Shown here: one piece after another, positions 16,604-43,113 of the stretch
Numbering within the stretch: the first letter of the stretch is position 1
How the letters are laid out: every line of letters starts with the position of its first letter
Assembly (NCBI GenBank): GCA_019779905.1
Contig: JABAKE010000025.1
Location: 1 to 44,701 of the forward strand
Length of the DNA: 44,701 bases
Direction: 5' to 3'
From: Modestobacter lapidis
GTDB taxonomy: Bacteria > Actinomycetota > Actinomycetes > Mycobacteriales > Geodermatophilaceae
Made by a program: the position numbers and the translations under genes
The notes under the pieces: generated by a model
What the model saw: only the letters and a program-made list of their open reading frames with translations
Told to the model about the DNA's origin: nothing
Databases searched by the model: none

Positions 16604-16608
16604 ACGAA

Positions 16609-16643
16609 GGGCGTCCCGGGTGTGTCCGGCACCCGGGACGCCC
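16609..16643 (+). terminator. Strong intrinsic hairpin terminator
   Basis: GGGCGTCCCGGGTG at 16609-16622 pairs perfectly with its complement at 16630-16643 around a 7-nt loop. It starts 5 nt after the binding-protein stop. There is no T-tract, which is common for actinobacterial terminators. It closes the 8.4-16.6 kb operon. Confidence 0.85.
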
Positions 16644-23763: not shown

Positions 23764-24977
23764 TCAGACCAGTGGGGTGATGCGCTCCTCGACCCCGAGC
23801 AGGGCCTTGCCGTACACCTCGTAGCTCACGGCCGGGGAGACGATGGCGTGCCGGGCGGCGGTCGCCGAGTCCCGCCACAGGCGCTGCAGGGGACTGAACT
23901 CGGCAAAGGACGCGGCACCGTGGGCGGAGAGCAGGATGTCGATGGCGCGGGTGATGCTCTCGGCCACGTAACCGGTGTCCGAGCGCACCCGGGCGCGGGT
24001 CACGTAGTCGGGGTAGCCGCCTCGGCCGGCGGCCTCGTCGATGTCCGCGGCGGCCCGATAGGCGTGCAGGTACGCCGTGTCGATGAGTCGGGCAGCCTCG
24101 GCGATCTGCAGCTGGAAGGCCACGGAATCGGTCTGCGCGTGAAGAAGGTGTAGGAGATCGGCTTCTTCGCAGCCTTGCTGATGACGTACTCGAGCGCCGC
24201 CGTGCCCATGCCCAGCTGGGGACCGACCAGGACGAGCGCGAGGATCGGGACGAACGCCGAGCGGTAGAAGGATTCGGTGCCGGTGTGCTCGTTGGGGTAC
24301 TCCCCGCCGATCGCCGGCGGGACGAGCATGACCCGGTGCTCGGGGACGAAGACGTCCTCGGCCACCAGGCAGTTACTCCCCGACGACCTCATGCCCGCCA
24401 CGAACCAGGTGTCCTCGAGGTCCATGTCCCCGCGCGGGATCAAAGCCAGGCCCTGGTTGACGACTTCGCCGGCCTCGTCGGTGATCGGCATGCCGAGGAC
24501 GGCCCAGGTGGCGTGCCAGGAGCCGGAGTTGTAGTACCACTTGCCGCTCACCCGCCAGCCGCCGTCCACCTTCTGCGTCTCCGCGGTGGGGGCGAGGACC
24601 CCGGACACCTTGGCGTCCGGATCGGCCCCGAACACCTCGTCCTGGGCCTGCTCCGGGAAGAGGCTGGCGAGCCAGGCGCAGACGTTGGTGAGGGTGAGTA
24701 CCCAGGCGGTGCCCCCGTCGGCCGCGCCCGCGGCGGCCGCGACGTCGAGCATCGTCCGCATCGAGGTCTCATAGCCGCCGTAGCGCTTGGGCACGGCCAC
24801 CTTGAACAGTCCCGCGTCGGTGAGCGCCTGGATGCTCTCCTCCACCACGCGCCGGTCCTGCTCACCCTGAGCGGCGTTCTTCTTCAGCAGCGGGTGCAGT
24901 TCCTTGACGCGGGCGACGAGCTCGGCGGCGCTGGGGGCTGCCTCTGTGCTGACGGGCATGTCCTGGACGGTGGTCAT
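23764..24977 (-). pseudogene. Acyl-CoA-dehydrogenase-fold flavin monooxygenase (HsaA-like), 1-nt frameshift
   Basis: From ATG 24977 the protein shows the group D flavin monooxygenase fold: AELVARVKELHPLLKKNAAQ, VPKRYGGYETSMRTMLDVAA, WRVSGKWYYNSGSWHATWAV and WFVAGMRSSGSNCLVAEDVF. At FFTR (about 24138) the frame shifts. The other frame continues FQLQIAEAARLIDTAYLHAY to ERITPLV and stops at 23764. The span is 1214 nt, and adding one C in CGC[C]AG restores 404 codons. Such enzymes hydroxylate phenols with reduced flavin from a partner reductase, encoded next door. Since all neighbours are intact, either the gene died recently or one base was lost in sequencing. Confidence 0.82.
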
Positions 24978-25013: not shown

Positions 25014-25532
25014 TCAGCGTGCGCAGGCAGCGATGTGGTCGACGATGGGCTTACGGGGGCGCTCCGAGAAGCGCGAGTGGGTGCCGAAGGTGCGGTGGCC
25101 GTAAACGAGCGGTGGCTGCTGACCGGGCACCGCTCGGGTGACCAGACCGACGAGCAGCAAGTGGTCGCCCGCCTCGATGACCTGCCAGAGGTCGCAGACC
25201 GCCCAGCTGGCCGCCTCGTCGAGCCGCGGCAGGCCGCGTGAGGAGGACCAGGAGACCTGGGCGAAGCGGTCCGCGCCCCGCCGGGCGAACAGGAGCGCCA
25301 ACTCGTCCTGGGCCGATCCGAGAACGTTGACGCCGAAGCGGCCCGCCCGCTGGATTCGGGCCAGCAGGCTGGAGGTGCGGTCGAGCGCGATGGAGATCAA
25401 CGGCGGCCGAAGGGACAGCGACGCGAACGAACTCACCGTCGCGCCGTGGGGGCCGTCCTGGTCGGCGGTGGTGATGACGGTGACCGGCGCGCATACCCCC
25501 GTCATGAGGTCGCGGAACTCTTGATCCAGCAT
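25014..25532 (-). CDS. Flavin reductase (HsaB-like) of a two-component monooxygenase
   Basis: A 172-residue flavin reductase of the split-barrel FMN-binding family, with VTVITTADQDGPHGATVSSF, SLRPPLISIALDRTSSLLAR, FGVNVLGSAQDELALLFARR and the C-terminal YGHRTFGTHSRF. It reduces FMN or FAD with NAD(P)H and hands it to the oxygenase encoded 36 nt downstream. It is the first gene of the minus-strand operon running to 21894 and is divergent from the GntR gene at 25678. Confidence 0.87.
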   Translation of the reverse strand: MLDQEFRDLMTGVCAPVTVITTADQDGPHGATVSSFASLSLRPPLISIALDRTSSLLARIQRAGRFGVNVLGSAQDELALLFARRGADRFAQVSWSSSRGLPRLDEAASWAVCDLWQVIEAGDHLLLVGLVTRAVPGQQPPLVYGHRTFGTHSRFSERPRKPIVDHIAACAR

Positions 25533-28224: not shown

Positions 28225-29277
28225 TCAGCCGGCTCTGGTGGAAGTCCTGTCCCGGTTGGCGACCGTAGTGGCCCGAGTAGAGAGAAGGTCGAGGGCCACG
28301 TCGATGATCATGTCTTCTTGGCCCCCGACGAGTCGACGGCGGCCTACCTCGACGAGGATGTCGCGGGTATCCAGCCCGTACTGCACGGCGGCCTTTTCCG
28401 CGTGACGCAGAAAGCTGGAGTAGACCCCGGCGTACCCGAGGGTCAGCGTCTCCCGGTCGACCTGGACGGGCCGGTCTTGCAGCGGCCGGACGAGGTCGTC
28501 GGCGGCGTCCTGCAGCTCGAACAGGTCGCAGTGGTGCTGCCAACCGTGAATGTTGGCGACGGCGATTAACGGCTCGATGGGGCAGTTCCCGGCTCCGGCG
28601 CCCATGCCGGCGAGCGAGGCGTCGACCCGGTAGGCGCCCTCCTCGACGGCGACGACGGAGTTGGCCACCGACAGCGACAGGTTCTGGTGGGCGTGGATGC
28701 CGATCTGGGTGCCTTCGTCGAGGACGTCGCGGTAGGCGCGCACGCGCTCGCGGACGCCGTCCATCGTGAGCCGGCCGCCGGAGTCGGTGACGTAGACGCA
28801 GTGCGCTCCGTAGGACTCCATCAGCTTCGCCTGCCGGGCCAGCTCCGCCGCCGGCGTCATGTGGCTCATCATCAGAAACCCCGACACGTCCATGCCGAGG
28901 TCGCGGGCCTTGCCGATGTGCTGGGCGGCGACGTCGCCCTCTGTCGCGTGGGTGGCCACCCGCACGGAGGTGACGCCCAAGCCGTGCGCGCGCTCGAGGT
29001 TCTCGATCGTGCCGATGCCGGGAAGGAGCAGCGTGGTCAGCCGCGCGTTCTTCACCACGTCGGCGGCGGCGGAGATCCACTCGTCGTCGGTGTTGCTGCC
29101 CGGCCCGTAGGTGAGGCTGGCGCCGGCGAGACCGTCACCATGCGCGACCTCGATGGCGTCTACGCCGGCGGCGTCCAGCGCGGCGGCGATCGCCCGCACC
29201 TGGTCGACGGAGAGGCGGTGCCGGACGGCGTGCATGCCGTCCCGGAGGGTGACGTCTTGGATGTAGACGGCGGTCAT
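28225..29277 (-). CDS. 4-hydroxy-2-oxovalerate aldolase
   Basis: A 350-residue HMGL-like TIM-barrel aldolase that splits 4-hydroxy-2-oxovalerate into pyruvate and acetaldehyde. Visible marks are [20 protein letters not shown] near the N-terminus (metal-binding Asp), the HxH metal ligands in [17 protein letters not shown] and the C-terminal [14 protein letters not shown]. Its ATG overlaps the stop of the acetaldehyde dehydrogenase by 4 nt, reflecting the known complex in which acetaldehyde is channelled between the two. It is the last gene of the 37.8-28.2 kb operon. Confidence 0.93.
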
Positions 29278-30236
29278 CGGGGGGTCTCCACGAGCTCGGC
29301 GGAACGGGAGGCCGTCCGATCGGCGATCCGCTCGGCCACCCGCACGGCCGCCGAGGTCATGATGTCGAGGTTGCCCGCGTAAGCCGGGAGGTAGTGCGCG
29401 GCACCCTCGACCTCGAGGAACACCGTCACCTGCACCCGGTCGATGTCGGCCGCGTCGTCGCCGAGCAGCACGCGCAACGATTCCGACGCCGGCAGCGGGG
29501 TGAACTGGACCTGCTGCTTGAGCCGGTAGCCGGGCACGTACTCCTGTACCCGCGCCACCATCTGCTCCACCGACGCGGTGACCGCGTCGCGGTCACAGTC
29601 GTCGACGATGCACAGCACCGTGTCCCGCATGATCAGCGGCGGGTCGGCGGGGTTCAGCACGATGATCGCCTTGCCCCTGGTCGCCCCACCGACGGCCTCG
29701 ATCGCCCGCGCGGTGGTCTCCGTGAACTCGTCGATGTTGGCCCGGGTGCCGGGACCGGCCGAGCGCGAGGAGATGGAGGCGACGATCTCCGCCCAGTGCA
29801 CCGGGGCGACCGCAGCGACCGCCGCCACGATCGGGATGGTGGCCTGCCCACCGCAGGTCACCATGTTCACGTTGCCGGTGGCCAGGTGGTCGTCGAGGTT
29901 GACTGTCGGCACGACGTAGGGCCCGATCGCGGCCGGGGTCAGGTCGATCAACCGCTTCCCGTACGGGGCCAGGGCGTTGGCGTTGGCCATATGCGCGCGG
30001 GCCGACGTGGCATCCAAGACGATCTCGATACCGTCGAAGGCCAGCATCGCGATCAGCCCGGCCACGCCGTCGGCGGTCGTCGGCACGCCCATCCGCTGCG
30101 CGCGGGCCAGACCATCGGAGTCCGGGTCGATCCCGACCATCGCCGCGACCTCGAGTACCTCCGAAAACCGCTGGATCTTGATCATCAGGTCGGTGCCGAT
30201 GTTGCCCGAACCGATGATGGCCACCTTCGTGGTCAC
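29274..30236 (-). CDS. Acetaldehyde dehydrogenase (acetylating)
   Basis: A 320-residue enzyme that converts acetaldehyde and CoA to acetyl-CoA with NAD+. The NAD-binding motif [19 protein letters not shown] is at the N-terminus. The catalytic Cys lies in [15 protein letters not shown] near residue 130, and [17 protein letters not shown] is typical of DmpF/MhpF proteins. The GTG start at 30236 follows GAGAGGAG. It forms a bifunctional complex with the coupled aldolase gene. Confidence 0.93.
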
Positions 30237-30302: not shown

Positions 30303-31139
30303 CTATTTCAGCGCGTACCCAGCGTCGACCGGCAGCGTGATACCGGTGATGTACCGCGCCTCGTCGGAGGCCAGGAACAGTAGGGCGTTGGCGATATCGG
30401 ACGGTTCCACCCAGGGCACGGGAAGGGCGTTGAGCGAGCGGTAGACCGGCTCGACGTCTTCGAGCGTGGGGTCGTCCAGGTCGGGCCGGAACAACCGGAA
30501 GTTGACGTCGTTGATCAGCATCGGCGTCTGCACCGTCGTCGGGTGGATCGAGTTGACCCGGATGGAGTGCGCGGCCAACTCGAGAGCGAGTGTCTTCATC
30601 AACCCGACGAGGCCGCTCTTGGCGGCGCCGTACGGCGCCAGACCCGGTACCAGCTTCAGTGCGATCGACGAACTGATGATCGTGATGGAACCTCCGCCGC
30701 CACCGGCGATGAGGTGCGGGATCGCCGGCTTGACCGTGTTGTAGACACCACTGAGGTTGGTGTCCAGCACCGCCTGCCAGTCCGACGCCGACGTTTCCGC
30801 GACCGAGCCCGGAATGCCCTGGATCCCGGCGTTGGCGACGACGATGTCGAGTCGGCCGAGCTGGGCCACACCGTCGGCCAGCAACGCGGTGACAGCTTCG
30901 GGCTCACGGGCGTCGGCCCGTGTGGCGATGATCCTCCGGTCGAACTTCTCGACGAGCCGGATCGTTTCGGCGAGGTCCTCGGGCGTTGCCGCCGGCGCGC
31001 CCTGAGCGGGCACCGGGCCCGCAACGTCGAACGCGATGATGTCCGCGCCCTCTTCGGCGAGCCGAACGGCGTGCGCGCGACCCTGACCTCGCGCCGCCCC
31101 CGAGATGAATGCCACCTTGCCCTCGACTCTGCCTGCCAT
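30303..31139 (-). CDS. Mycofactocin-coupled-type SDR oxidoreductase
   Basis: A 278-residue short-chain dehydrogenase. The cofactor motif is AFISGAARGQGRAHAVRLAE, the catalytic Tyr-Lys are in APYGAAKSGLVGLMKTLALE, and the ending is ITGITLPVDAGYALK. The ARGQGR variant and the insertion after the second strand (about residues 40-65) are features of actinobacterial SDRs thought to keep their NAD bound and to exchange electrons with mycofactocin. A strong ribosome site (GGAGGAG) precedes ATG 31139. It lies between the triple fusion and the lower-pathway genes. Its substrate, an alcohol or diol of the pathway, is not evident. Confidence 0.85.
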   Translation of the reverse strand: MAGRVEGKVAFISGAARGQGRAHAVRLAEEGADIIAFDVAGPVPAQGAPAATPEDLAETIRLVEKFDRRIIATRADAREPEAVTALLADGVAQLGRLDIVVANAGIQGIPGSVAETSASDWQAVLDTNLSGVYNTVKPAIPHLIAGGGGGSITIISSSIALKLVPGLAPYGAAKSGLVGLMKTLALELAAHSIRVNSIHPTTVQTPMLINDVNFRLFRPDLDDPTLEDVEPVYRSLNALPVPWVEPSDIANALLFLASDEARYITGITLPVDAGYALK

Positions 31140-31293: not shown

Positions 31294-32598
31294 TCACGCC
31301 GGTTCCCCGGCGCCGAACGTGACGGCGACGGGCCCCAGTCCGCTCACCTCGGCGGTATACGTGGCACCCGCCCGGACCGGCACCATGGGTCCGAGGGCTC
31401 CGGAGAGAACAACGTCGCCTGCCCGTAGCGGCTGGCCCAGGTCGCGGGCGGCCGCGGCGAGCCATGCCAAGGCCGCGAGCGGGTCCCCCAGGCAGTCGGC
31501 ACCGGTGCCGGTGGACACCTCGTCGTCGTCCTCGCACAGCGTCATCCGCACCGCTCGCAGGTCGAGGTCGTCCAACGGCCGGCGCCGCGAGCCGAGCACG
31601 AACAGCCCGCTGGAGGCGTTGTCGGCAACCGTGTCCACGAAACTGATGTCCCAGCCGGCAATGCGGCTGTCCACGATCTCCAGGGCGGCCGCTACCTCGG
31701 CCACGGCCGCACGGACGTGTCCGCTGGTGAGGTCGGGCCCAGCCAGGTCAGCGCCGAGGATCAGGGCCACTTCGGCCTCGATCCGCGGTTGGATCAGCCG
31801 GCCGGCGTCGACCGTCCCACCGTCGGCCACGGCCATGTCCTCGAACAGCACGCCCAGGTCGGGCTGGTCGACGCCTAGCTGACGTTGCACCACGGGGTTC
31901 GTCAGGCCCACCTTCCGGCCGACGACCTTCCGGCCGACGGCGACGGCGCGAGCGGAGAGCACCTGCTGAACGGCGTAGCCGGCCGCCAACGTCGGTGGCA
32001 GCACGTCACGAACCGGGGCACAGGGCGTACCGGTCACCGCCGCCTGGTGGAGTCGTTCGACCGCGGTCGCCACCGCGTCCGGGGACACTCCGTCGGTCAC
32101 CGGCCGCGCCGCGGGCAGCTGTGGCTCGTCCACCGGGGGGTCGAGGACGGTGATGGCCCGCACCGGGCAGCTCGCGGCGGCCTCGAGCGCCAGGGCGCGG
32201 GCGTCACCGGCAACGGGCTCCAGAACGACGGCGACGTTGCGCTCGTCGTCGAGGTCGAAGAGCTCGGGCGCGGACACGACGCACGAGGCAAAGCCCTCAC
32301 ACCGCTCGAGGTCCACCGTGATCTTCATCGTCTCTCTCTCGGTCAGGTCATGGGCCGGATGGTCGGCACCGAAGCGCTGCATCGGATCGATCCCAAGGGC
32401 ACCCGCCAGCTGCATCACCAGCAGCGGGTGGGCGCCCCGGTAGTGGAGGGTGACCAGGTCGCCCTCGAGGACGGCCGTCAGATCGGTCAGCGGTACACCC
32501 GCGAGGTCGGCCGCCCGCTGACCCGCCTGCTCGGCAGCGGAACGGAACCCCGGATCCTGGACGACCTGGCGGATGACCTGGTCCAGCGGCAGGTTCAC
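31294..32598 (-). CDS. Triple fusion: LigA-like subunit / [3Fe-4S] ferredoxin / 2-oxopent-4-enoate hydratase
   Basis: A continuous 434-codon frame with three modules. Residues 1-80 resemble the LigA small subunit of class II extradiol dioxygenases (LDQVIRQVVQDPGFRSAAEQ; YRGAHPLLVMQLAGALGIDP). Residues 91-155 form a one-cluster ferredoxin with C100 and C106 (CEGFASC) and C144 (SCPVRAI). Residues 170-434 are a 2-oxopent-4-enoate hydratase/4-oxalocrotonate decarboxylase-family domain (GRKVGLTNPVVQRQLGVDQP; RIEAEVALILGADL; LGDPLAALAWLAAAARDLGQ). The ATG overlaps the LigB stop by 4 nt. An internal ATG at 32328 preceded by GAGAGAGA could also release a ferredoxin-hydratase product. The hydratase makes the aldolase substrate, and the ferredoxin may serve the nearby Rieske oxygenase. 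Confidence 0.85.
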   Translation of the reverse strand: MNLPLDQVIRQVVQDPGFRSAAEQAGQRAADLAGVPLTDLTAVLEGDLVTLHYRGAHPLLVMQLAGALGIDPMQRFGADHPAHDLTERETMKITVDLERCEGFASCVVSAPELFDLDDERNVAVVLEPVAGDARALALEAAASCPVRAITVLDPPVDEPQLPAARPVTDGVSPDAVATAVERLHQAAVTGTPCAPVRDVLPPTLAAGYAVQQVLSARAVAVGRKVVGRKVGLTNPVVQRQLGVDQPDLGVLFEDMAVADGGTVDAGRLIQPRIEAEVALILGADLAGPDLTSGHVRAAVAEVAAALEIVDSRIAGWDISFVDTVADNASSGLFVLGSRRRPLDDLDLRAVRMTLCEDDDEVSTGTGADCLGDPLAALAWLAAAARDLGQPLRAGDVVLSGALGPMVPVRAGATYTAEVSGLGPVAVTFGAGEPA

Positions 32599-33491
32599 GG
32601 CTCCTGCTCGGGGAACAACCGGGCCAGTGCGATCCCGGTGGCCCAGTCCGGCACAGACCGGTACGCCAGCACTACACCGCGGGGCGTGCGCGACGTCCGT
32701 CCTGCTGCCTGGCCGGGCCCCTGCCCGGACTCGGACGCTGCCCGGCTCTCGCCGGCGGTCGCGGCGGCCATCGCGGTGACCCAGTTGCGGATCTCCGGGG
32801 CGCCGTTGCCGGCCTCGGCGAGGACGTCGGCCGTCTTCATGGCGAGGATCGAGTCGAGGTCACCCGCCTGGACGTCTTCCAGGAACGCCTCGTCGAAGTC
32901 GACGTTGATCTGGCCCATCTCCGGCGTGCCGACCCAGTGGGAGAGTCCACCGGTGCCCAGCACGACCACCCGTTCGACCGCGGGGCGCCGGCCGATGACG
33001 TCGCGCAGCAGTTCCCCGAGCTGGGCACAGCGCCACAGCGGCGGCAGCGGCTCGGTGCTGGCGTTCTGGAACACCGGCACGACCGGGATGTCCATCTCCG
33101 GTCGGATGAGCGTCAGGGGCGCCATGAAGGCGTGGTCGATCTTGGGGTTCGCGGAGAATGCGAGGTCGAAGCCGGCGGCCACGCCGTCGGCGAGGAGCTG
33201 GGCGGCGAAGGCGCCGGCCAGCGGGAGTTCGGCGCTGGCCACGCCTCCGTCACCCCAGCCGGTGGCCGTCTCCCCGATGCCGACGCAGATCTGCGGGAAG
33301 CTGTCGTAGCCGAATGAGTTCAGGTGCTCGCTGCCGATGACGACGAGCACGTCGGGGGCCAGCCGGTCCACCTCCGCGCGCACCTGGTCGAAGGCTTCGT
33401 GGACCGCGGCGTGCACGTCGTTGTCCGGCTGGAACTTGCGGATGATCATTGCCGTGTGGGACGTCGCGTACGCCCCCACCAACCTGCCCAT
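32595..33491 (-). CDS. LigB-type (class III) extradiol dioxygenase, catalytic subunit
   Basis: A 298-residue LigB-superfamily enzyme. Likely iron ligands are H12 (YATSHTAMI), H56 (GSEHLNSF) and the Glu in GNGAPEIRNWV; the active-site His region PKIDHAFMAPL is also present. It cleaves a catechol-type ring using Fe(II). The small LigA-like partner needed by many such enzymes is encoded immediately downstream as the N-terminal module of the triple fusion, with a 4-nt overlap that would keep subunit synthesis balanced. The hydrolase just upstream indicates that the fission product is a ketone hydrolysed by C-C cleavage. Confidence 0.9.
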   Translation of the reverse strand: MGRLVGAYATSHTAMIIRKFQPDNDVHAAVHEAFDQVRAEVDRLAPDVLVVIGSEHLNSFGYDSFPQICVGIGETATGWGDGGVASAELPLAGAFAAQLLADGVAAGFDLAFSANPKIDHAFMAPLTLIRPEMDIPVVPVFQNASTEPLPPLWRCAQLGELLRDVIGRRPAVERVVVLGTGGLSHWVGTPEMGQINVDFDEAFLEDVQAGDLDSILAMKTADVLAEAGNGAPEIRNWVTAMAAATAGESRAASESGQGPGQAAGRTSRTPRGVVLAYRSVPDWATGIALARLFPEQEP

Positions 33492-34468
33492 CAGCCGGCT
33501 CGCAGGGGGTCGGAGGCCCGATCGTCAGGGCGACCGTCGCCGACGGTCCGGCCAGCCGGGTACTGCTCGGTGAGTGAGCGCAGGAAACCGCCGACGACAG
33601 CCTGGAACTCCGACGGCTTCTCGAACTGCGGCCAGTGGCCGGCGTCCTCCATCAGGTGGAACGCTGCATCGGGGATGATCCGGCTGGCCGCCTCCCCCAC
33701 CGGCCACGGCATGGTCGGGTTCTGCCGGGTCCACAGCACGAGCGTCGGGCAGCTGATCGTCGCCAGCCGCTCGGCGGTCAGCATCTCCTCCGGCCGGACC
33801 CGGGCGGTGAACCCGGCGACCATGTCACCGGCGATGGCGGCGAAGTCCGGTCTGGTGTAGATCCGGTACCGGGTCTCCACCAGCTCGTCGGTGACCACGG
33901 ACGGGTCATGGACCAGCCATTCCAGCCGGGCCCGGACCTTCTCCCGGGTCGGGGTATCCAGGGCCTTGGTGGTGGCGGCCGCAACCTTCTGGCCGACCTG
34001 TTCGGTCAGCGCGGCGCCGTCGGCGTCCAGCTGCAGGCCCGCCCCGGTGACGCTGACGAGCGAGGCGACCCGCTCGGGGTGGTGGACGGCGAGAAACGCC
34101 GCGACCCAGCCGCCGAGGGACTGACCGACGAGGTGGGCTCGCGGGGCGCCGATCTCGTCGAGGAAGCCAAGCACGTGCTGGGCGAGCGCGCGGATCGAGT
34201 ACTCGATCTGCGGCTTGTCGGTGAAGCCGTGGCCCAGCATGTCGATGGCGTGCACGCGGAAGTCCCGGCCGAGGATGGCGACGTTGCGCACCCAGGTCTC
34301 GGCGTGCCCGCTGATCCCGTGCAGCAGGACTACCGGCTCACCGGTGCCTGCCTCGACGCTGCGGGTGCGGTACGGGCCGGCCTGGCGGTACCGGACCTCG
34401 GTGCCCAGCAGGTCCACCCAGAACGAGTTCCCCTGCGGCGGGGTCGTCCCCCCGTCGACGCTCGTCAC
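33491..34468 (-). CDS. Meta-cleavage product hydrolase (alpha/beta fold)
   Basis: A 325-residue alpha/beta hydrolase. The oxyanion region is VVLLHGISGHAETWVRN, the nucleophile elbow is LVGQSLGGWVAAF with S117, and the catalytic His is in MEDAGHWPQFEKPSEF. It resembles BphD/TodF/CumD-type C-C hydrolases that split ring-fission products into a carboxylic acid and 2-hydroxypenta-2,4-dienoate. The GTG start at 34468 follows GGAGAGGAG; the longer upstream frame is unsupported. The stop overlaps the LigB start (ATGA). Confidence 0.87.
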   Translation of the reverse strand: MTSVDGGTTPPQGNSFWVDLLGTEVRYRQAGPYRTRSVEAGTGEPVVLLHGISGHAETWVRNVAILGRDFRVHAIDMLGHGFTDKPQIEYSIRALAQHVLGFLDEIGAPRAHLVGQSLGGWVAAFLAVHHPERVASLVSVTGAGLQLDADGAALTEQVGQKVAAATTKALDTPTREKVRARLEWLVHDPSVVTDELVETRYRIYTRPDFAAIAGDMVAGFTARVRPEEMLTAERLATISCPTLVLWTRQNPTMPWPVGEAASRIIPDAAFHLMEDAGHWPQFEKPSEFQAVVGGFLRSLTEQYPAGRTVGDGRPDDRASDPLRAG

Positions 34469-34514
34469 GTCGAGCTCCTCTCCGTTCGGCCGCGCGGAGG
34501 CGCGGGATGGTCGG

Positions 34515-34883
34515 TCACTCTGGTCCGAACGGCTCGGTGAGCAGCGCGGTGAACGCCCTCTCGTCGAGCCAGGTGAGGCTCTCCAGCTGCAGTGCGTCGA
34601 GGAAGACCTCGCGGCCGGTGCGCAGGCTCCGGATGGCCAGGCGAAGGTCGTTGCCGTCGCGGTCGGCGCGTACCCGTACCCGGGCGAACTCGTTGCTGAC
34701 CACGAGCTCGCCGTCGGCAGACCCGGTACGCAGCCACGAACCCGGCTCCGGTGCGTCACCGGCCCCGACGTCCCGGCTGCCGACGGGATCGGCCGCCGGG
34801 ACCTCAGAAGAAGATGGAGATGGCACGGGGCAGCACCCGGTGGTCGAGGAGCACGGTCCGTTCGGCGATCTTCCAGCTCTCAC
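34515..34883 (-). CDS. Small conserved protein next to oxygenase beta subunit (copy 1)
   Basis: Function unknown. The C-terminal 65 residues read VVSNEFARVRVRADRDGNDL, then LQLESLTWLDERAFTALLTE and PFGPE. They match the small protein at 42730-43113, which also follows an oxygenase beta gene (shared pattern: NEFA.VRV, L.LE.LTW, F..L/I...PFG). Similar small proteins in actinobacterial oxygenase clusters are sometimes labelled dihydrodiol dehydrogenase, but no cofactor motif is seen here. The start is unclear. GTG 34883 would overlap the beta gene by 80 nt, and a GTG at the VVSNEF segment would give only about 62 residues. It lies between the beta subunit and hydrolase genes. Confidence 0.65.
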   Translation of the reverse strand: MRAGRSPNGPCSSTTGCCPVPSPSSSEVPAADPVGSRDVGAGDAPEPGSWLRTGSADGELVVSNEFARVRVRADRDGNDLRLAIRSLRTGREVFLDALQLESLTWLDERAFTALLTEPFGPE

Positions 34884-35307
34884 CGGAGGTCACTATCCGG
34901 TCGCGACGGGAGCCGACGAAGAACTGCTCGGAGTTGGCCCGCCGGGACTGGAAGACGATGAAGTTGCACTCCACTACCAGGTCGCCGTTCGGCCCGGGGG
35001 TGACCAGGACGTTGCTGATGAACCGACGCGTCCGCGACCGCGGCTGCTCGGAGTGGGCAAGGCCGCCGGCCAAACGCTCCATCCGCTTGGCGAGGAAGCG
35101 GGCGTCCTCCTCCATGAGCGACCACTCGCCGGGGACGTGGTCCCGGTGCTGCCGCACCTCACGGGTCTCGGTGATCGGCATCCAGTAGCGGACGTCCTCG
35201 GTGAACAGGCCGAGCCACTCGTCGTAGCGCTGCTCGTCGAGCATCTTGGCCTCGCGGTAGAGGAAGTCCTCGACGTCGCGGCGCAGATCGGTGAGGGAAC
35301 TGGTCAC
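34804..35307 (-). CDS. Ring-hydroxylating dioxygenase beta subunit (copy 1)
   Basis: A 167-residue beta subunit of a Rieske non-haem iron oxygenase (SnoaL-like fold). It contains VEDFLYREAKMLDEQRYDEW, LFTEDVRYWMPITETREV and FFVGSRRDRIV, with SWKIAERTVLLDHRVL near the end. It has a structural role in an alpha3beta3 oxygenase with the alpha subunit, whose stop overlaps its ATG by 4 nt. Family members include the beta subunits of biphenyl-, benzoate- and cumate-type oxygenases. It shares the fold with the beta gene at 43110 but is 30 residues shorter. Confidence 0.92.
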   Translation of the reverse strand: MTSSLTDLRRDVEDFLYREAKMLDEQRYDEWLGLFTEDVRYWMPITETREVRQHRDHVPGEWSLMEEDARFLAKRMERLAGGLAHSEQPRSRTRRFISNVLVTPGPNGDLVVECNFIVFQSRRANSEQFFVGSRRDRIVTSGESWKIAERTVLLDHRVLPRAISIFF

Positions 35308-36635
35308 TTCTGCTCTCCCGGGGTGGTCATGAGCTCGAGCCAGTAGCGGTAGAAGTTGCGGTGGTTCTGCTCCGAGTAGTGCGGCCCCAGGTGGCCGGGG
35401 TACCCCTCCTCGTGGACCTCGCCCTCGTGCCCCAGGCCCATCGCGTAGTTGAAGTCCCGAGTCTGGGAGACGACCCCGCGGGCGGATTCGGTGATCTGCT
35501 CGAAGTTCTCGCCGTCGTCCTGGCCGAAGATCCCGGCCGCCGCGTTCTCCTGGGACATCTGGGTGCGGGCGAAGTCCTTGACCGACTGCGGCGCGCCGCG
35601 GTCGAAGAGCGCCGTCTGCCAGACCTCGATCTCACCCGGCCCCTTCGGGTGCCATTGGAAGAGCCCGAAGACGTGGAAGACGCCGAACTTGATCCAGGAC
35701 AGGTTCGGGAAGATGTTGCCCTCGCCCAGACCGTGCATCTCCGCCTGTAACGGGGAGACCCGGGCCTGCAGCCGCTCGTGGACGGCGGTGACGTACTCGA
35801 TCGCCTCCGGCCCGAGGAACTGGGCCATCCCGACGTCGTTCTGGTAGGCCCGGCCGGGCTTGCTGATGTCGCCCATCCCGTGGCCGTGGTCGAAGTGCGC
35901 GATGTAGTCGGCGAGCATGTCGTAGTCGGGGAGGAAGCCGATCTGGAAGGCCGACCCGTGGGTGTACAGCACGTGGTAGTCATCGCCGGCGAAGTTCTCC
36001 GCCGCCAGCTTCCAGTTGGCCTTGATCCGAAACTTCATCGTGGGGCCGATCACCTCGAGCCCGCCGAGCGGCGCCTCGAAGGCCAGGTCCAGGTACCAGA
36101 GCTGGTCGGCGCCGAGGTAGTCCACCAGCGGGATGGCGTTCTCGTCCCAGTTGGCGAAGACGAAGCCCTTGTAGGTCTCCACCCGCGGAACGGCCTTCAG
36201 GCCCAGCCGGGACTTGTCCAGCTCGCCGTTGTAGACGGTGTCCGCGCGGGGCACGCCGATCAGGTCGCCGTTGTTGCTGTAGGTCCAGCCGTGGTACGGG
36301 CAGCGGAAGAACTTCGACGTCCCGGCGTCGGTGCTGCAGACGGCCATGCCCCGGTGGGCGCAGGAGTTGAGCATCACCCGGATCGCTCCGTCCGCACCGC
36401 GGGTGGCGATCACCGGGTCCTCGCCCATGAAGTTCGTCAGGTAGTCGCCCGGCTCGCTCAGCTGCGACTCGTGCCCGATGAACAACCAGGTCTTGGTGAA
36501 GACCCGGTCCAACTCCGTGCGGTAGATCGCCTCGTCGACGAAGACCGTTCGGCTGACGGCGCCCTCGTCGGGCTTCACCAGGTCGTGCAGTCCTGCGGCG
36601 GCCACGTCAACGGGGCGTTCGCTGATGCTGGTCAT
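35304..36635 (-). CDS. Ring-hydroxylating dioxygenase alpha subunit (copy 1)
   Basis: A 443-residue catalytic subunit. The Rieske [2Fe-2S] ligands are C92, H94 (SCAHRG) and C112, H115 (RCPYHGW). The mononuclear iron site is in ENFAGDDYHVLYTH with H221 and H226. It adds O2 to an aromatic ring to give a cis-diol, using electrons from a ferredoxin. The ATG at 36635 follows AGAGGA; the frame runs further upstream only as a shadow of the SDR gene. Downstream genes give a full meta pathway to pyruvate and acetyl-CoA. The substrate class (alkylbenzene, biphenyl-like or carboxylated arene) cannot be fixed from the sequence. Confidence 0.93.
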   Translation of the reverse strand: MTSISERPVDVAAAGLHDLVKPDEGAVSRTVFVDEAIYRTELDRVFTKTWLFIGHESQLSEPGDYLTNFMGEDPVIATRGADGAIRVMLNSCAHRGMAVCSTDAGTSKFFRCPYHGWTYSNNGDLIGVPRADTVYNGELDKSRLGLKAVPRVETYKGFVFANWDENAIPLVDYLGADQLWYLDLAFEAPLGGLEVIGPTMKFRIKANWKLAAENFAGDDYHVLYTHGSAFQIGFLPDYDMLADYIAHFDHGHGMGDISKPGRAYQNDVGMAQFLGPEAIEYVTAVHERLQARVSPLQAEMHGLGEGNIFPNLSWIKFGVFHVFGLFQWHPKGPGEIEVWQTALFDRGAPQSVKDFARTQMSQENAAAGIFGQDDGENFEQITESARGVVSQTRDFNYAMGLGHEGEVHEEGYPGHLGPHYSEQNHRNFYRYWLELMTTPGEQK

Positions 36636-36726
36636 GGTCGGGTCCTCTCGGGGCCGGACGGGTTGCGTGGGGTGAGGTGGGAGGGCGGACCGGAGCGGCC
36701 CACCTGCAAGCGGGCCCCCTCCGGGA

Positions 36727-37800
36727 TCACTGAGCGCTGTCGGTGCTGGCCCAGCTGTTCTGGGCCCCGAGGTTGGCCATGCCCGCCGTGTACAGGGCGC
36801 CCTGCGCGTCGAAGGGGAGATGTGCCACGCCGGCCCGCTCGTAGACGGGGGTCGCGGCTTCCAGCCGGCTGTAGATCTCCTCCATGTCCGGCGGCAGCTC
36901 GTGGTCCTGCCACGCGGCGTAGTCCCCGTAGCCGTGGTCGTAGTTCCACTCCGGCACGTAGTAGAGGCGCCCGGACGCCCCCGCGCTGTCCTGCGCGGCG
37001 AGGAAGAGCGAGATCGGCAGCAGGTGCTCGGGAATCGCCGGGCGCATGAAGTAGGCGATGCCCTGCTCGTTGAAGGCCCGGGCGGTGGCGTCGAACCACG
37101 ACGCGCGGGTGTGCCCCGGCATGATCGCGTTGACCGCGACACCGTCGCCGCGCACCTCCTCGGCGAGGTAGAAGGTCAGCGCCATCACGGCGGCCTTGGT
37201 GGCCTGGTAGGGCATCTCGACCGTCCACGGGCGCAGCCCGTGGTAGCCGCCGCCGGCGGCGACGGGCAGGACGCCGCTGCTGACGACGTTGACGATGCTG
37301 CCCCGCTGCTGGGCCCGCATCGGCTCGATGAACCGGCGGATGGCCTTCAGCGTGCCGAACACGTTGACGCCGAACATCACCTCCCAGTCGCGGTCGGTCG
37401 TGTCGAGGGTGTTCCGGTGGCCGGTCGGGGCGAAGAGGGTTTCGGAGACCAGAGACGCGTTGTTGACCAGGACGTCGACGGTCCCGAACCGGTCGATTAC
37501 AGCGTCTCGGGCGGCGTCGAGGGCGGCGTCGTCGGTGATGTCCATGTCGACGGCCATGCCACTGCCGTCCGACTCCAGCTGCTTGCGGAAGTCGTCAGCG
37601 TCGTCCCACGTCAGGTCCGCGGCAACGACCTTGGCGCCGGCGCGGAGCAGTCCCTCGCAGAGGGAGCGGCCGATGCCGCGGGCTCCACCGGTGACAACGA
37701 CGACTCGACCCGCCACCTCGCCCTGCCACTCACCGAGTGCCCGCTCCACCAGTTGACGCTGCCGCGCAGTGGCTGCGGCTCCTCCACCAGACTCTGACAT
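36727..37800 (-). CDS. SDR-family dehydrogenase, first gene of the meta operon
   Basis: A 357-residue short-chain dehydrogenase with the NAD(P) motif VVVVTGGARGIGRSLCEGLL, the NNAS motif (VDVLVNNASLVSETLF) and the catalytic MPYQATKAAVMALTFYLAEE. It is longer than usual because of a C-terminal extension (YVPEWNYDHGYGDYAAWQDH onward). Similar long SDRs with a DHGYG segment occur in actinobacterial aromatic clusters. It probably oxidises the cis-dihydrodiol made by the oxygenase or a related alcohol. The ATG at 37800 follows GGAGAATGAG. The gene is divergent from a LysR gene. Confidence 0.85.
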   Translation of the reverse strand: MSESGGGAAATARQRQLVERALGEWQGEVAGRVVVVTGGARGIGRSLCEGLLRAGAKVVAADLTWDDADDFRKQLESDGSGMAVDMDITDDAALDAARDAVIDRFGTVDVLVNNASLVSETLFAPTGHRNTLDTTDRDWEVMFGVNVFGTLKAIRRFIEPMRAQQRGSIVNVVSSGVLPVAAGGGYHGLRPWTVEMPYQATKAAVMALTFYLAEEVRGDGVAVNAIMPGHTRASWFDATARAFNEQGIAYFMRPAIPEHLLPISLFLAAQDSAGASGRLYYVPEWNYDHGYGDYAAWQDHELPPDMEEIYSRLEAATPVYERAGVAHLPFDAQGALYTAGMANLGAQNSWASTDSAQ

Positions 37801-38864: not shown

Positions 38865-38881
38865 CTGACCACGCTGGTCAG
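38865..38881. terminator. Bidirectional hairpin between convergent LysR and IclR genes
   Basis: CTGACCA (38865-38871) pairs perfectly with TGGTCAG (38875-38881) around a CGC loop. It sits 18 nt after the LysR stop and covers the last bases of the IclR gene. It is short and lacks a T-run, so it is a moderate candidate. Confidence 0.5.
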
Positions 38882-39672
38882 AGCAGGAGGTGGTCGATCT
38901 CCTCCGCCGCAGCTGCCAGCCGAGTGAGGACGTCCTGCTCGGTCGCCGGGCTCATCCGACTGAGCGGCAGGGAGGCGTTAACCGCCAACCGCGGGGAGCT
39001 GGTCGAGGCCAGTGCGACGGCGAGGGAGGCGACACCCTCCTCGCTCTCCTCCTTGCTCGTCGCAAACCCCCGGGAACGGATCGTGCGCACCGCGTCGAGA
39101 AGCTCGGTCCGGGTGCCGAGCGAATGTGGGGTCAGCTGGACGAGCTGCTCGTCGGGATAAAGCAGACGCAGCTCGTCGTCAGTCAGCATGGCCAGCAGCG
39201 CCTTGCCGGTGGAAGTGCAGTGGGCGGGCATGCTGCGCCCGAGCCGGTTGGCCACCCGCAGGGCCCGTTCGCTCTCGATGGAGTCGATAAAGTGGACCTC
39301 GTTCCCCTCGAGCCGGCCCAGGTGCACCGTCTCCCCCAGGTCGCTGTTGAGCCGCTCGAGCACCGGGCGTGCCCGGTTCCGGACGTCGAGTCGGCGCAGC
39401 AGACCGAACGCCAGCGAGTCCAGGGTCGGCCCCGGGACGTAACTGCGCGTCGCGGCGTCCTGCCGGACGTAGCCGCGGTACTGGAGCATGGCCAGCAGCC
39501 GGTGCGCGGTGGACGATGCCACGCCGAGGTACTGGCTGACGTCCGTCAGCCGCAGGGTGGGGTGCTCCCCCAGCAGCAGCACCACCCGGAGTGCGTTGTC
39601 GACCGACTCGATCGGGTACTGCGGCGCGGAGCCGAACTCCGGTGTTGGGGGCAGGTTCGACACCGCGCTCAT
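38878..39672 (-). CDS. IclR-family transcriptional regulator
   Basis: A 264-residue regulator with an N-terminal winged helix (SVDNALRVVLLLGEHPTLRL; SQYLGVASSTAHRLLAMLQY) and a C-terminal IclR effector domain (GETVHLGRLEGNEVHFIDSI; MPAHCTSTGKALLAMLTDDE). IclR proteins commonly control aromatic-acid catabolism (PcaR/PobR/PadR-type clusters). The gene follows the class II aldolase gene by 63 nt on the same strand, so it may be co-transcribed with the second oxygenase operon and regulate it. Confidence 0.88.
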   Translation of the reverse strand: MSAVSNLPPTPEFGSAPQYPIESVDNALRVVLLLGEHPTLRLTDVSQYLGVASSTAHRLLAMLQYRGYVRQDAATRSYVPGPTLDSLAFGLLRRLDVRNRARPVLERLNSDLGETVHLGRLEGNEVHFIDSIESERALRVANRLGRSMPAHCTSTGKALLAMLTDDELRLLYPDEQLVQLTPHSLGTRTELLDAVRTIRSRGFATSKEESEEGVASLAVALASTSSPRLAVNASLPLSRMSPATEQDVLTRLAAAAEEIDHLLL

Positions 39673-39735
39673 GGGTCTGAGGCTACGGGGTGTCTGCTGT
39701 GCAGAGAGCGATGCCGACGGCCTCCGCCCCGGCGG

Positions 39736-40467
39736 TCACCCCATCCGGGTGACTTCATGCCGCCACGCCACGCCCTCGTTGAAGCCCGGTCCGAGGTCGG
39801 GCAGCGCCGCCAGGTCCTCGGCCGGCAGGTCCGCCTGGGTGCCTCCCGCCGAGGCGATCTGGAGGGACAGCCGGGCCAGGGAGTCCACGCTGATCGCCCG
39901 CAGGACCGCTTCCTGGACCGATCCGCCGCTGCTGGTCAGGCCGTGCCCGCGGAGCACGACGACCGGCCGCTCACCCATGGCCGCCACCATCTCCAGGGCC
40001 AGACCCCGGTTCCGTACCAGCACGCCACGCCGGTAGACGGGCACCCCGCCGGCAGCCAGCTTGGCGCCCGGGATGTCGAACGCACCGACGATGGGGCGGA
40101 TCGCGAGGCCGGCCAGGTCTGCTGCGACCACCGCCGGCGGATGCACGTGGACGACGGCGGCGGCCTCCGGCCGGGCACGCAGCACCTCCACGTGCAGCGG
40201 CAATTCGTTCGGTGGGGACCACCCATCGAGCTCGCCCGGAGCTCCGGGGGCACCCCCCTGGTCGACGAGGTGGACGTCGGCGGCCGTCGTCCAGCCCAAG
40301 CCCCGCTCCTGAGGGCCGCGGCAGCGGATCAACAAGCGTTCCTCGTCGATCCGCAGGCTGACGTGGCCCAGGAACCCGTCGGACAGCCCACGGGCTGCGG
40401 CGACCCGACACGCATCCGCGACGAGCTGCCGCTCAGCGGCGTAGTCGCCCCTGATGCCGCCGCTCAT
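39736..40467 (-). CDS. Class II aldolase/adducin-family protein, possible aromatic decarboxylase
   Basis: A 243-residue zinc-dependent class II aldolase fold: ARGLSDGFLGHVSLRIDEER at the N-terminus, metal ligands in AAVVHVHPPAVVAADLAG (HVH) and VVVLRGHGLTSSGGSV (His). In actinobacterial phthalate clusters and in p-cumate pathways, members of this family decarboxylate dihydroxylated aromatic acids. Since the gene lies directly after ferredoxin reductase, ferredoxin and diol dehydrogenase genes of an oxygenase cluster, that role is likely here. This is inference from context. Its ATG overlaps the reductase stop by 4 nt. Confidence 0.8.
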   Translation of the reverse strand: MSGGIRGDYAAERQLVADACRVAAARGLSDGFLGHVSLRIDEERLLIRCRGPQERGLGWTTAADVHLVDQGGAPGAPGELDGWSPPNELPLHVEVLRARPEAAAVVHVHPPAVVAADLAGLAIRPIVGAFDIPGAKLAAGGVPVYRRGVLVRNRGLALEMVAAMGERPVVVLRGHGLTSSGGSVQEAVLRAISVDSLARLSLQIASAGGTQADLPAEDLAALPDLGPGFNEGVAWRHEVTRMG

Positions 40468-41702
40468 GCCGGCGCCGCCACCGCGGCCGGCAGCCGGTCG
40501 AGTTGCGCGACGACGTCGTCGAACGACGCGCCCGCACCCACCGCCCTCCGGCAGAGCAGCAACGCCTTGGGCCAGTTGACCGCGACCGCTCCTCGCAGGA
40601 CCCCGCTGTCGTCGGTGTAGACCGCGGCTCCGCGGCGATCGGCACTAGTCAAATCCCCCACCAGCGCGTGCCGGGTCGCCCCGACCGGCCGGCCGACGAT
40701 CTGGATCTTCCAGTCGTACTGGTCGCTCCACACGTACTCGACCGGGCGGTGGGACCGCAGGTCCTCGGGGTGGGCGATGTTGTGTGCCACCACGGCAGCG
40801 GACTCAACCGCGTTGGTCCAGTGCTCGACTCGCACATGCTCTCCGTGTCCCGGGTGGAACCACCGCAGCACGTCACCGACGGCGTACACCTCCGCGGCGT
40901 CGACCGCTCGGCAGTGCTGGTCGCAGACGACGCCGTTGTCCACGAGGAGGCCCGAGGAAGCCAGCCAGCCGTCGTTGGGAACGGCCCCGATCCCGACCAC
41001 GACGGTCCCCGCCGTCAGCTGCGAACCGTCGGTCAACTGCACCGTTAGGTCACCGGCTCCGCCCTCGACCGACTCGACACCCAACCCGAACTTCGTGTTC
41101 ACGCCGTGCCGGGTGTGCAGGTCGACGAACAACTCTCCAACCTCTCGGCCGACGACGCGTCCGATCGGAGCGGCAAGGGGATCGACGACGGTGACCTCCC
41201 GGCCCAGGGCGTGCGCGGTGGCGGCCACCTCCGCGCCGATGAAGCCACCGCCGATGACCACGACTGGCCGGTCGACCTCCAGGTCGTTCCGCAGCCTGCG
41301 CGCGTCGGCCATCGAGCGCAGGACGTGCACCCCGGATGTGGCCGACCACGGGGAGGGGCGCGCGGCGGCACCGGTGGCGAGCACCGCAGCGTCGTAGTCG
41401 ACCGTGCTCCCATCGATGAGCAGCACCTGCCGGTCGGCGACGTCCAGACGCTGCGCCGCGACCCCCAGACGCAGCTCGATCCCGACTGCTGCCGCCGCCT
41501 CGGCGGTCAGCAGCGCGATCCGCTCTTCGGACCAACTGCCGGCCAGGAGTTGCTTAGACAGCGGCGGCTTGTCGTAGGGCAGGTCCGGCTCGTCGCCCAC
41601 GAGGACGATGCGACCGCCGAAGCCCTCGGTGCGCAGGGCCTGCGCCGTCCGCACGCCGGCGACCGACGCGCCGACGACGACCACGGTCCGGGGATCCGTC
41701 AT
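40464..41702 (-). CDS. Ferredoxin-NAD(P)+ reductase of the oxygenase system
   Basis: A 412-residue FAD-dependent pyridine nucleotide-disulphide-type reductase (BphA4/rubredoxin reductase class). FAD motif VVVVGASVAGVRTAQALRTE, PYDKPPLSKQLLAG, NAD motif VVVIGGGFIGAEVAATAHAL, and the second FAD block VDAAEVYAVGDVLRW. It takes electrons from NAD(P)H to the ferredoxin encoded immediately upstream (4-nt overlap) and hence to the Rieske oxygenase. As the only reductase of this kind in the window, it may serve both oxygenases. Confidence 0.92.
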   Translation of the reverse strand: MTDPRTVVVVGASVAGVRTAQALRTEGFGGRIVLVGDEPDLPYDKPPLSKQLLAGSWSEERIALLTAEAAAAVGIELRLGVAAQRLDVADRQVLLIDGSTVDYDAAVLATGAAARPSPWSATSGVHVLRSMADARRLRNDLEVDRPVVVIGGGFIGAEVAATAHALGREVTVVDPLAAPIGRVVGREVGELFVDLHTRHGVNTKFGLGVESVEGGAGDLTVQLTDGSQLTAGTVVVGIGAVPNDGWLASSGLLVDNGVVCDQHCRAVDAAEVYAVGDVLRWFHPGHGEHVRVEHWTNAVESAAVVAHNIAHPEDLRSHRPVEYVWSDQYDWKIQIVGRPVGATRHALVGDLTSADRRGAAVYTDDSGVLRGAVAVNWPKALLLCRRAVGAGASFDDVVAQLDRLPAAVAAPA

Positions 41703-41896
41703 CAGTCCTCGATGCTCAGCGCGTTGACCGGACAACTGCGCGCGGCTTCCTCGACCCGCGGCCGGTCGGCGTCGCTGATCTCCTCAGTCAGGAGCACAAC
41801 CTTGCCGTCGTCGTCGATGTCGTAGGCGTCGGATGCGCCGGTGATGCAGTTGCCGTATCCCTGACAGGCCTCGACGTCGGCCATCAACCGGGGCAT
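41702..41896 (-). CDS. One-cluster ([3Fe-4S]-type) ferredoxin
   Basis: A 64-residue ferredoxin with cysteines in EACQGYGNCITGA (C-x5-C) and RSCPVNALSIED (CP). The missing fourth Cys (Tyr/Gly in its place) is typical of [3Fe-4S] ferredoxins of actinobacterial P450 and oxygenase systems. AGGAGAG precedes ATG 41896. Its stop overlaps the reductase start. It resembles the ferredoxin module in the triple fusion at 31294-32598 (C-x5-C, CPV.A). Confidence 0.9.
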   Translation of the reverse strand: MPRLMADVEACQGYGNCITGASDAYDIDDDGKVVLLTEEISDADRPRVEEAARSCPVNALSIED

Positions 41897-41923
41897 GAGC
41901 TCTCCTGTTCGATGGTGGGTGGA

Positions 41924-42733
41924 TCAGGAACGTTTTCTGGGGGAGGCGGAGACACCGATCCCGCCGTCGGGGTGGACCACCCCGCCGGTGATGCCACGGG
42001 ACCGGTCGGAGGCCAGGAACACGTAGCTACACGCGTGGTCCGCAGCCGTCAACGCGACCTGCAGCGGTACCCGGGACGCCAGTTCCTCGGCGCGGCCCGG
42101 GATGTCGCCCAGGCTGCGCCCCGCAGTTCCCAGGCTGGGCAACCCGCGCAGGTCGGTGCCCAGCGTGCCGCCCGGTGCGACCCCGTTGACCCGCACCTCC
42201 GGCGCCAGGTCGTGGGCGAGGGCCGTGACGATCCCGCGGACGGCGAACTTCGAGGACAGGTACAGAACGCCGCCTCGGCCCGGGAAGTAGGAGGACGTCG
42301 ACTCTGTGAGGAGCACCACTCCGCGTCCCGACGCCTGCAGATGGGGCAGTGCCGCCTTCACGGACTGCAAGTGGGAAAGCACGTTGGTGCGGAACATCTC
42401 GTCGAAAGCGGCCTCGAGCACGTCGGCGTCGAGGTCGAGGAGACTGCGGTAGAAGTCGAACACCCCCACGCAGTTGACCAGAACGTCCAGCCCGCCGAAG
42501 GCCTCGACTGCCGAGGCGACCGCGGCGTGGTTGGCCTGACGGGTGACCGCGTCGCCGACGGTGACCGGGACGTCGGGCAAGGCTGCCTCGATCTCCGCGC
42601 TCTTGTCCGGATCGCGCTCCAGGACCGCGACCCGCGCTCCTTCGGCGAGGAAGGCGTCCACGACCGCCCGGCCGATGCCCGAGCCCGCGCCCACGACCAG
42701 CGCTCGCCGCCCCTCGAGCCAGCCCGCGGTCAC
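41924..42733 (-). CDS. cis-Dihydrodiol dehydrogenase-type SDR
   Basis: A 269-residue SDR with ALVVGAGSGIGRAVVDAFLA (NAD), the VNCVG motif (LDVLVNCVGVFDFYRSLLDL) and the catalytic Tyr-Lys in GVLYLSSKFAVRGIVTALAH. The FDFYRSL and LFxxN-like segments resemble BphB-type cis-dihydrodiol dehydrogenases, which oxidise the oxygenase product to a catechol. The GTG start at 42733 overlaps the stop of the small conserved gene by 4 nt. The ferredoxin gene follows after 27 nt. Confidence 0.87.
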   Translation of the reverse strand: MTAGWLEGRRALVVGAGSGIGRAVVDAFLAEGARVAVLERDPDKSAEIEAALPDVPVTVGDAVTRQANHAAVASAVEAFGGLDVLVNCVGVFDFYRSLLDLDADVLEAAFDEMFRTNVLSHLQSVKAALPHLQASGRGVVLLTESTSSYFPGRGGVLYLSSKFAVRGIVTALAHDLAPEVRVNGVAPGGTLGTDLRGLPSLGTAGRSLGDIPGRAEELASRVPLQVALTAADHACSYVFLASDRSRGITGGVVHPDGGIGVSASPRKRS

Positions 42734-43113
42734 TGGCTGCCACCCTCGGGCAGGTGCTGCGCCGGCTCGTTGTCGCCCTCGAGGACCGCGCCGTCCTCGA
42801 GGATGCCTGCGGTCCCGTCGGCGACCAGCGACCCGAAGGGGTTGCCGATCATCGCCGAGAAGGTGGCGGTGCTCTGCCAGGTCAGGGCCTCGAGCTCCAG
42901 GGGGTCCAGCGCTACCCACTGCCCGGACTTCGGTGACTCGACCAGGAGCCGGGAGCCGTTGCGGGTATCGACGCGGACCACCCGCACCTCGGCGAACTCG
43001 TTCGCGATGGTGATCGCGTCGCCGCGGACGCCCGCTAGCAACGCGTCGCGCTCGGCTGCGGCGCGCCGCGCAGCCCGGGCATCGACCTCCTCGCCCTCCC
43101 AGTGCAGCGTCAC
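42730..43113 (-). CDS. Small conserved protein next to oxygenase beta subunit (copy 2)
   Basis: A 127-residue protein of unknown function. It has a charged helical N-terminus (EGEEVDARAARRAAAERDAL), then ITIANEFAEVRVVRVDTRNG, VALDPLELEALTWQSTATFS and IGNPFGSL, and an acidic tail. The middle part matches the small protein at 34515-34883 in the other oxygenase cluster. The GTG start overlaps the beta-subunit stop, and its own stop overlaps the diol dehydrogenase start (GTGA in both cases). Translation is thus coupled to the oxygenase, suggesting an assembly or accessory role. No cofactor or catalytic motif is seen. Confidence 0.75.
   Translation of the reverse strand: MTLHWEGEEVDARAARRAAAERDALLAGVRGDAITIANEFAEVRVVRVDTRNGSRLLVESPKSGQWVALDPLELEALTWQSTATFSAMIGNPFGSLVADGTAGILEDGAVLEGDNEPAQHLPEGGSQ

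Follow-up and report, generated by a model that had tools for sequence, protein, structure and literature searches.

The window, the whole stretch of 44,701 nucleotides of Modestobacter lapidis DNA that was analysed, contains an operon in the order SDR, Rieske alpha, Rieske beta, hydrolase, LigB-type subunit, fusion, second SDR, MhpF and MhpE (Table 1). The fusion is a minus-strand frame of 434 residues, running from a GTG codon at 32598 to 31294, and the ORF check showed it to be free of internal stops. Domain and fold searches confirmed that LigA-like, ferredoxin and hydratase modules lie in this one frame, as the first-pass annotation had proposed; the ATGA overlap with the LigB-type gene that it had reported is actually GTGA.

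Table 1. Features of the fusion frame, its junctions and the adjoining genes in the window; percentages are identities to the counterpart in Rhodococcus sp. p52.
Feature	Position	Strand	Evidence or remark
Whole fusion ORF	31294..32598	-	434 aa, GTG start; order LigA-like module, ferredoxin, linker, hydratase
LigA-like small-subunit module, residues 1-88	32335..32598	-	11 stand-alone relatives; fold match to DesB/LigA
Ferredoxin module, residues 91-157	32128..32328	-	Cys100, Cys106, Cys144; three-cysteine type
Linker, about residues 158-180	32059..32127	-	Ka/Ks 0.43-0.55 over residues 153-179
MhpD-type hydratase module, residues 181-431	31306..32058	-	profile and structure-sequence alignment; Ka/Ks 0.14-0.18
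GTGA overlap, LigB-type stop TGA and fusion start GTG	32595..32598	-	sequence
GAGAGAGAGA run ahead of internal ATG	32331..32340	-	predicted Shine-Dalgarno-like pairing, -9.2 kcal/mol
Internal ATG, start of ferredoxin-hydratase in relatives (MKITV)	32326..32328	-	comparison with relatives
SDR dehydrogenase (FlnB-like)	36727..37800	-	97%
Rieske dioxygenase alpha (DbfA1-like)	35304..36638	-	96%
Rieske dioxygenase beta (DbfA2-like)	34804..35307	-	95%
Alpha/beta hydrolase for ring-cleavage product (FlnE-like)	33491..34471	-	84%
LigB-type catalytic subunit (FlnD1-like)	32595..33491	-	83%
Mycofactocin-type SDR, between fusion and mhpF	30303..31139	-	TIGR03971 above cut-off
Acetaldehyde dehydrogenase (MhpF-like)	29274..30236	-	TIGR03215 above cut-off
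4-Hydroxy-2-oxovalerate aldolase (MhpE-like)	28225..29277	-	TIGR03217 above cut-off
3,4-Dihydroxyphthalate decarboxylase (PhtC), adjoining cluster	39736..40467	-	381 bits vs cut-off 200
Ferredoxin reductase, adjoining cluster; possible electron donor	40464..41735	-	best model 283.6 bits, below its 450 cut-off

The ferredoxin module exhibits a single-cluster C-x5-C...CP motif, matches the Pfam families Fer4_13 and Fer4_15 and is 85.5% identical to the p52 ferredoxin. By this motif it is of the DbfA3 type, for which a [3Fe-4S] cluster and electron transfer to DbfA1A2 are predicted. The hydratase module matched NF008461 over residues 180-431 (8e-88) and was aligned to the MhpD structures 1sv6 and 2wqt over residues 182-433 (E 2.1e-73). 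Since it missed the 2-keto-4-pentenoate hydratase equivalog cut-off, with 294 bits against 350, we name it MhpD-type; it would fit as the enzyme for the five-carbon fragment freed by the hydrolase. MhpD itself, the 2-hydroxypenta-2,4-dienoate hydratase, is a stand-alone enzyme, whereas the hydratase of the window carries a ferredoxin and a LigA module at its N-terminus.

Residues 1-88 gave no Pfam match at E-values up to 10, and a sequence search of the PDB with this module found no LigA, whereas fold comparison did find one. The structure model of the module (pLDDT 80.7) is helical, and the LigA-type domains of DesB gallate dioxygenase and of LigA, from LigAB protocatechuate 4,5-dioxygenase, were the top 8 Foldseek matches and the top 7 VIA rows, above all the unrelated chains listed, the helical fold being common to these proteins at 11-15% identity and with weak fold-match E-values of 0.1-1.7. 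The domain search of the 434-residue protein thus recovered the ferredoxin and the hydratase by profile but not LigA, which is recognised by its fold as a LigA-type small subunit, an assignment that we consider good but not beyond doubt. In DesB the LigA-type domain lies inside the catalytic chain, while here it is fused to the ferredoxin and hydratase of other steps. As the LigB-type partner (Pfam LigB, 5.3e-30) and a LigA-type part are both present, a class III two-subunit extradiol dioxygenase of the LigAB/FlnD type, its complex formation and its ring cleavage are predicted. In the full-chain model most of the LigA and ferredoxin parts have a pLDDT under 50-60, so that no arrangement of the modules is predicted.

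The first-pass annotation had called for a survey of homologues with the same module order, and the two joins gave different results. Ferredoxin and hydratase are joined in 8 of the 120 protein clusters listed (7655 matches in all); seven of these have 342-351 residues, and P0001 alone, 97% identical to the fusion of the window, is of full length. The LigA join proved exceptional: P0001 was the sole match of the LigA part among 272 candidates of about 239-760 residues, and a search restricted to proteins of about 49-155 residues yielded 11 clusters of stand-alone LigA-like proteins (84-102 residues), two of which are those of M. muralis and the genome G093. At E 1e-20 or better, a LigA-containing locus was found in 5 of 112 genomes of the family, own genome included; wider sampling yielded few: in the order 4 of 397, one of them weak, and in the class 3 of 394, two of them weak, both counts including the own genome; in the genus of G352 2 of 18; and in a further order a single weak match among 293. 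LigA is in frame with the ferredoxin in the window, P0001 and the genome G011, and separate in M. muralis and G093; the hydratase of G011 is interrupted, close to the end of a contig, by three deletions that are either real or assembly faults. Judged from these sequences, the ferredoxin-hydratase join is the wider core and the LigA join the rarer, and a plain reading as three fused genes was dropped for this reason.

We compared the junction between LigA and the ferredoxin among these loci. In M. muralis and G093 the LigA-like stop overlaps the start of the ferredoxin-hydratase, and the spacer of the window has a net length difference of one base to that of M. muralis, so that the frames are continuous in the window; one base within a GA repeat decides the LigA join. 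The junction of G011 is also in frame, with three codons that differ from the window and a TTG in place of the internal ATG. This ATG at 32328 and its purine run, to which the first-pass annotation had drawn attention, are present and kept in relatives, and seven ferredoxin-hydratases of 342-351 residues start at this codon or four residues later. Predicted pairing before the ferredoxin start, calculated with an assumed 16S end, is -9.2 kcal/mol in the window, -8.7 in M. muralis, -10.4 in p52, -9.6 in G011 and -3.5 in G093. Because the internal ATG and the purine run are kept, with a pairing near the M. muralis and p52 values, a short ferredoxin-hydratase is likely also made from this start. 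The fusion may tether the enzymes of its modules, and conservation of the internal start speaks for two forms made in different amounts over a strict 1:1:1 stoichiometry.

The own genome is a draft of 383 contigs with a completeness rating of 100%. Although 16 members of the broad FAA-hydrolase family are present in it, it contains one LigA match only, and the nearest other MhpD-like gene reaches 32% identity. As this draft yielded neither a second LigA nor another close MhpD-type hydratase, the long protein probably serves both roles, and if the LigB-type enzyme needs such a small subunit, its source would be the long protein. Ka/Ks values among the window, M. muralis and G093 amount to 0.06-0.18 in the ferredoxin and 0.14-0.18 in the hydratase, compared to 0.43-0.55 in the linker. 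We consider it fairly probable that the 434-residue LigA-like, ferredoxin and MhpD-type frame provides the small subunit of the ring-cleaving dioxygenase, the electron carrier of the angular dioxygenase and the hydratase of the five-carbon fragment, the short form being likely made alongside. Against this reading count the LigA join itself, which rests on the window, P0001 (protein sequence only) and G011 (with its broken hydratase), and the weak pairing in G093, which bears on the internal start. Our confidence is slightly lower on account of the fold E-values and the G093 start, both weak, and of a second Rieske pair in Geodermatophilus ruber (described below).

It is possible, if rather doubtful, that the LigA stop was lost neutrally by drift within an overlapping stop and start, the long protein being tolerated while the ferredoxin-hydratase started at the internal ATG carries out the function. 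In M. muralis, G093 and six plasmid-type loci LigA has a gene of its own, 11 stand-alone clusters exist, the internal ATG and the purine run are kept, and the net one-base change in that run could be neutral. Such drift is, however, difficult to reconcile with the single LigA match of the own genome, given that the LigB-type partner would need the long protein, with the frame being kept in P0001 and at the junction of G011, and with the TTG at the internal start of the latter.

On plasmid pDF02 of Rhodococcus sp. p52 the genes of the operon lie in equal order up to the ferredoxin, with 78-97% protein identity, the LigA-like part being 78% and the ferredoxin 86% identical (the other genes in Table 1). 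The same order up to the ferredoxin is found on Gordonia rubripertincta pGRS1 and R. pyridinivorans pNAPH, and on the R. rhodochrous LH-B3 plasmid the visible part matches from the alpha subunit onward. These dbfA-type clusters share with the window the SDR, Rieske alpha, beta, small protein, hydrolase, LigB-type, LigA-like and ferredoxin series, but their LigA-like protein and ferredoxin are separate genes and of the hydratase there is a frameshifted start only. In Terrabacter sp. DBF63, FlnD reportedly consists of two subunits, FlnD1 and ORF16, and DbfA3 is reported to be the [3Fe-4S] ferredoxin for DbfA; that system has, like the window, a LigB-type subunit with a small partner, but as separate proteins. 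Strain p52 is described as a user of both dibenzofuran and fluorene, with dbfA, which serves the initial attack on dibenzofuran, located on pDF02 (PMC11357670). This plasmid has two Rieske pairs, and we presume from the gene order which one corresponds to dbfA. By order and identity to this dbfA plasmid, the operon of the window is likely of the dbfA/fln type, for dibenzofuran and fluorene breakdown; the first-pass annotation had not recognised this likely identity or its link to phthalate genes.

A phthalate-type cluster adjoins the operon at 38878-44701, comprising an IclR regulator, PhtC, ferredoxin reductase, ferredoxin, SDR, Rieske beta and Rieske alpha, the latter truncated by the contig end. 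PhtC lies far above its cut-off, which fits a route from fluorene to phthalate. The ferredoxin of this cluster (41705-41890), 34% identical to that of the fusion, might serve DbfA instead, which counts against the role assigned to the fusion ferredoxin.

Separate ferredoxins were found at six loci, from four plasmids and two genomes (L087, L091, L092, L093, L097 and L098). All six carry behind the ferredoxin the linker minus one base and then about the first 50 hydratase codons with further indels, and the similarity to the window stops at an identical point in each. The four loci compared are 98.8-100% identical in DNA and, as the six are near-identical, the remnant counts as one event. The ferredoxin stop lies just past the base loss in the linker in five of the six; that of G795 (L098) has an additional, earlier frameshift within the ferredoxin, taken as a draft-assembly fault. 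Over remnant and linker, identity is 89.8% to the fusion of the window, 85.2% to that of M. muralis and 71.1% to that of G093, and 71-76% to stand-alone hydratases over a shorter stretch. Since linker and hydratase start sit behind the ferredoxin and are nearest to the fusion of the window, and the fusion-bearing M. muralis is the sister of the plasmids, the separate plasmid ferredoxin would most simply descend from a ferredoxin-hydratase fusion and not the reverse; an ancestor with ferredoxin and hydratase adjacent but out of frame needs more changes. No intact plasmid ferredoxin-hydratase was present among the 60 of 498 matching records listed, in which no match starts before residue 53 of 344 and which include only 2 of the 8 records covering 80% or more of the query. 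The ferredoxin part alone gave 4 close plasmid matches (84-87%), all being the four plasmids described, with 11 of 11 matches listed.

The hydratase tree was built from 50 rows, of which two derive from DNA and 48 from the 120 listed proteins, P0001 being left out; M. muralis and G093 are represented by P0002 and P0007, the latter as cluster representative. The 8 ferredoxin-hydratase rows sampled form one clade (97/91) with P0009, which is a hydratase only, without ferredoxin, counted as fused for its linker-like start. As hydratases of Geodermatophilus and Blastococcus belong to the set in which this clade sits, Geodermatophilaceae or similar bacteria are a likely source of the plasmid clusters. 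In the DNA tree of LigB, LigA and ferredoxin (9 rows, without P0001, L097 and L098), M. muralis groups with the plasmids at 94/92, just under the starred level, and the window, G011 and G093 are unresolved. For this reason, and because of the long G. ruber branch, one and two origins of the LigA join are indistinguishable.

The remnant also bears on whether the hydratase part is dispensable and the fusion of the window is heading for its loss, as in the plasmids and perhaps G011, which we regard as unlikely. A hydratase remnant follows the ferredoxin at 6 of 6 separate-ferredoxin loci, pDF02 has another, separate hydratase-type gene elsewhere (50-53% identical), and the hydratase of G011 is broken. 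Against such decay, the hydratase is stop-free and constrained among the window, M. muralis and G093, and mhpF and mhpE follow the fusion in the window and likewise in M. muralis. That an assembly or base-calling error in the purine run fakes one gene from two, the decisive single base lying in a GA repeat of a draft of 383 contigs, is very improbable given that P0001, which is 3% different, shares the frame, as does G011 with its three differing codons.

The G. ruber locus (L022 and L084, one 222,870-base contig) presents an SDR, a hydrolase, a LigB-type gene and a LigA-hydratase frame of 344 residues. Like in the window, LigA is fused to the hydratase directly behind the LigB-type gene; unlike in the window, there is no ferredoxin between LigA and the hydratase and there are no Rieske genes between SDR and hydrolase. 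Between these two genes a search for Rieske remnants gave short matches only, scattered over the window (best E 0.008); another Rieske pair, 38-45% identical, lies some kb off on the opposite strand. Of mhpF and mhpE only remnants exist, and at 13156-13329 of L084, behind the LigA-hydratase frame, a deletion scar connects the mhpF start to the mhpE end. The best tree places the G. ruber hydratase next to the stand-alone P0023 (91/86), one clade with the fused forms being unrejected by the AU test (p 0.286); this form may stem either from loss of the ferredoxin or from an independent fusion. A LigA-hydratase without ferredoxin counts against the reading in which all three modules of the long protein cooperate. 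On the other side, the ferredoxin and the dbfA1A2-like pair are found together (window, G011 and four plasmids that represent one lineage) or are both absent (G. ruber), which fits the ferredoxin as partner of the oxygenase, in the few lineages with loci long enough for both.

In the mechanism that we favour for the main reading, the hydratase core would oligomerise like MhpD and carry the ferredoxins via the flexible linker, long chains would add the LigA module, docking on the LigB-type subunit, and short chains from the internal start would dilute this module in the mixed oligomer. As the corresponding history, a ferredoxin gene would have joined with the hydratase gene in an mhpDFE operon, the LigA stop would have been lost later through the net one-base change in the spacer, and in the Rhodococcus/Gordonia lineage the hydratase part would have decayed to leave a separate ferredoxin. 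As a further speculation, which we hold to be rather unlikely, a hydratase oligomer of mixed short and long chains would be a scaffold gathering the electron carrier of the angular dioxygenase and the ring-cleaving enzyme around the hydratase of the five-carbon fragment, a natural fluorene/dibenzofuran metabolon, of which the plasmid ferredoxin would be a leftover, the scaffold having decayed after leaving Geodermatophilaceae.

The fusion combines known parts in a rare way within an operon recognisable as one for pollutant degradation, and its plasmid relatives carry an unexpected trace of its evolution. As the first-pass annotation had rightly stated, its parts serve different pathway steps: electron carrier, hydratase and ring-cleavage subunit are an odd natural grouping in that they act at separate steps of one pathway, three of which one protein would serve. 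If the parts cooperate, the fusion would be a ready-made example of how bacteria may build degraders of dioxin-like pollutants, while the remnant gives a checkable history of the plasmid ferredoxin gene and a pointer to its likely Geodermatophilaceae-like source. Among the papers listed by a literature search, judged by titles and abstract openings, none describes a LigA-ferredoxin-hydratase fusion; most subscription journals were outside its scope, so that prior publication is possible.

Several minor observations were made. Identity to p52 is 95-97% for SDR, alpha and beta and drops to 78-86% for the genes from the hydrolase to the ferredoxin, and identity to M. muralis is 75% for LigA compared to 92-99% for ferredoxin, hydratase, second SDR, MhpF and MhpE, which suggests a recombination mosaic or a fast-changing LigA. 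Plasmid pDF02 has a phtC-like stretch (L091, 1290-1887), about 90% identical to that of the window and aligning in two frames, and a second, annotated phtC-like gene (64%) at 16607-17302. A small protein directly follows the beta subunit in both Rieske clusters of the window (34515-34826 and 42730-43113, minus strand); the two are 43% identical over 61 residues and have no Pfam family at E up to 1, and p52 has annotated hypothetical proteins at both corresponding positions. Finally, an HsaA-like flavin monooxygenase gene (23764-24977, minus strand), adjoined by an HsaB-like flavin reductase gene (25014-25532), appears to be split into an N-terminal frame of 325 residues and a C-terminal one of 119, by a frameshift or a sequencing error.
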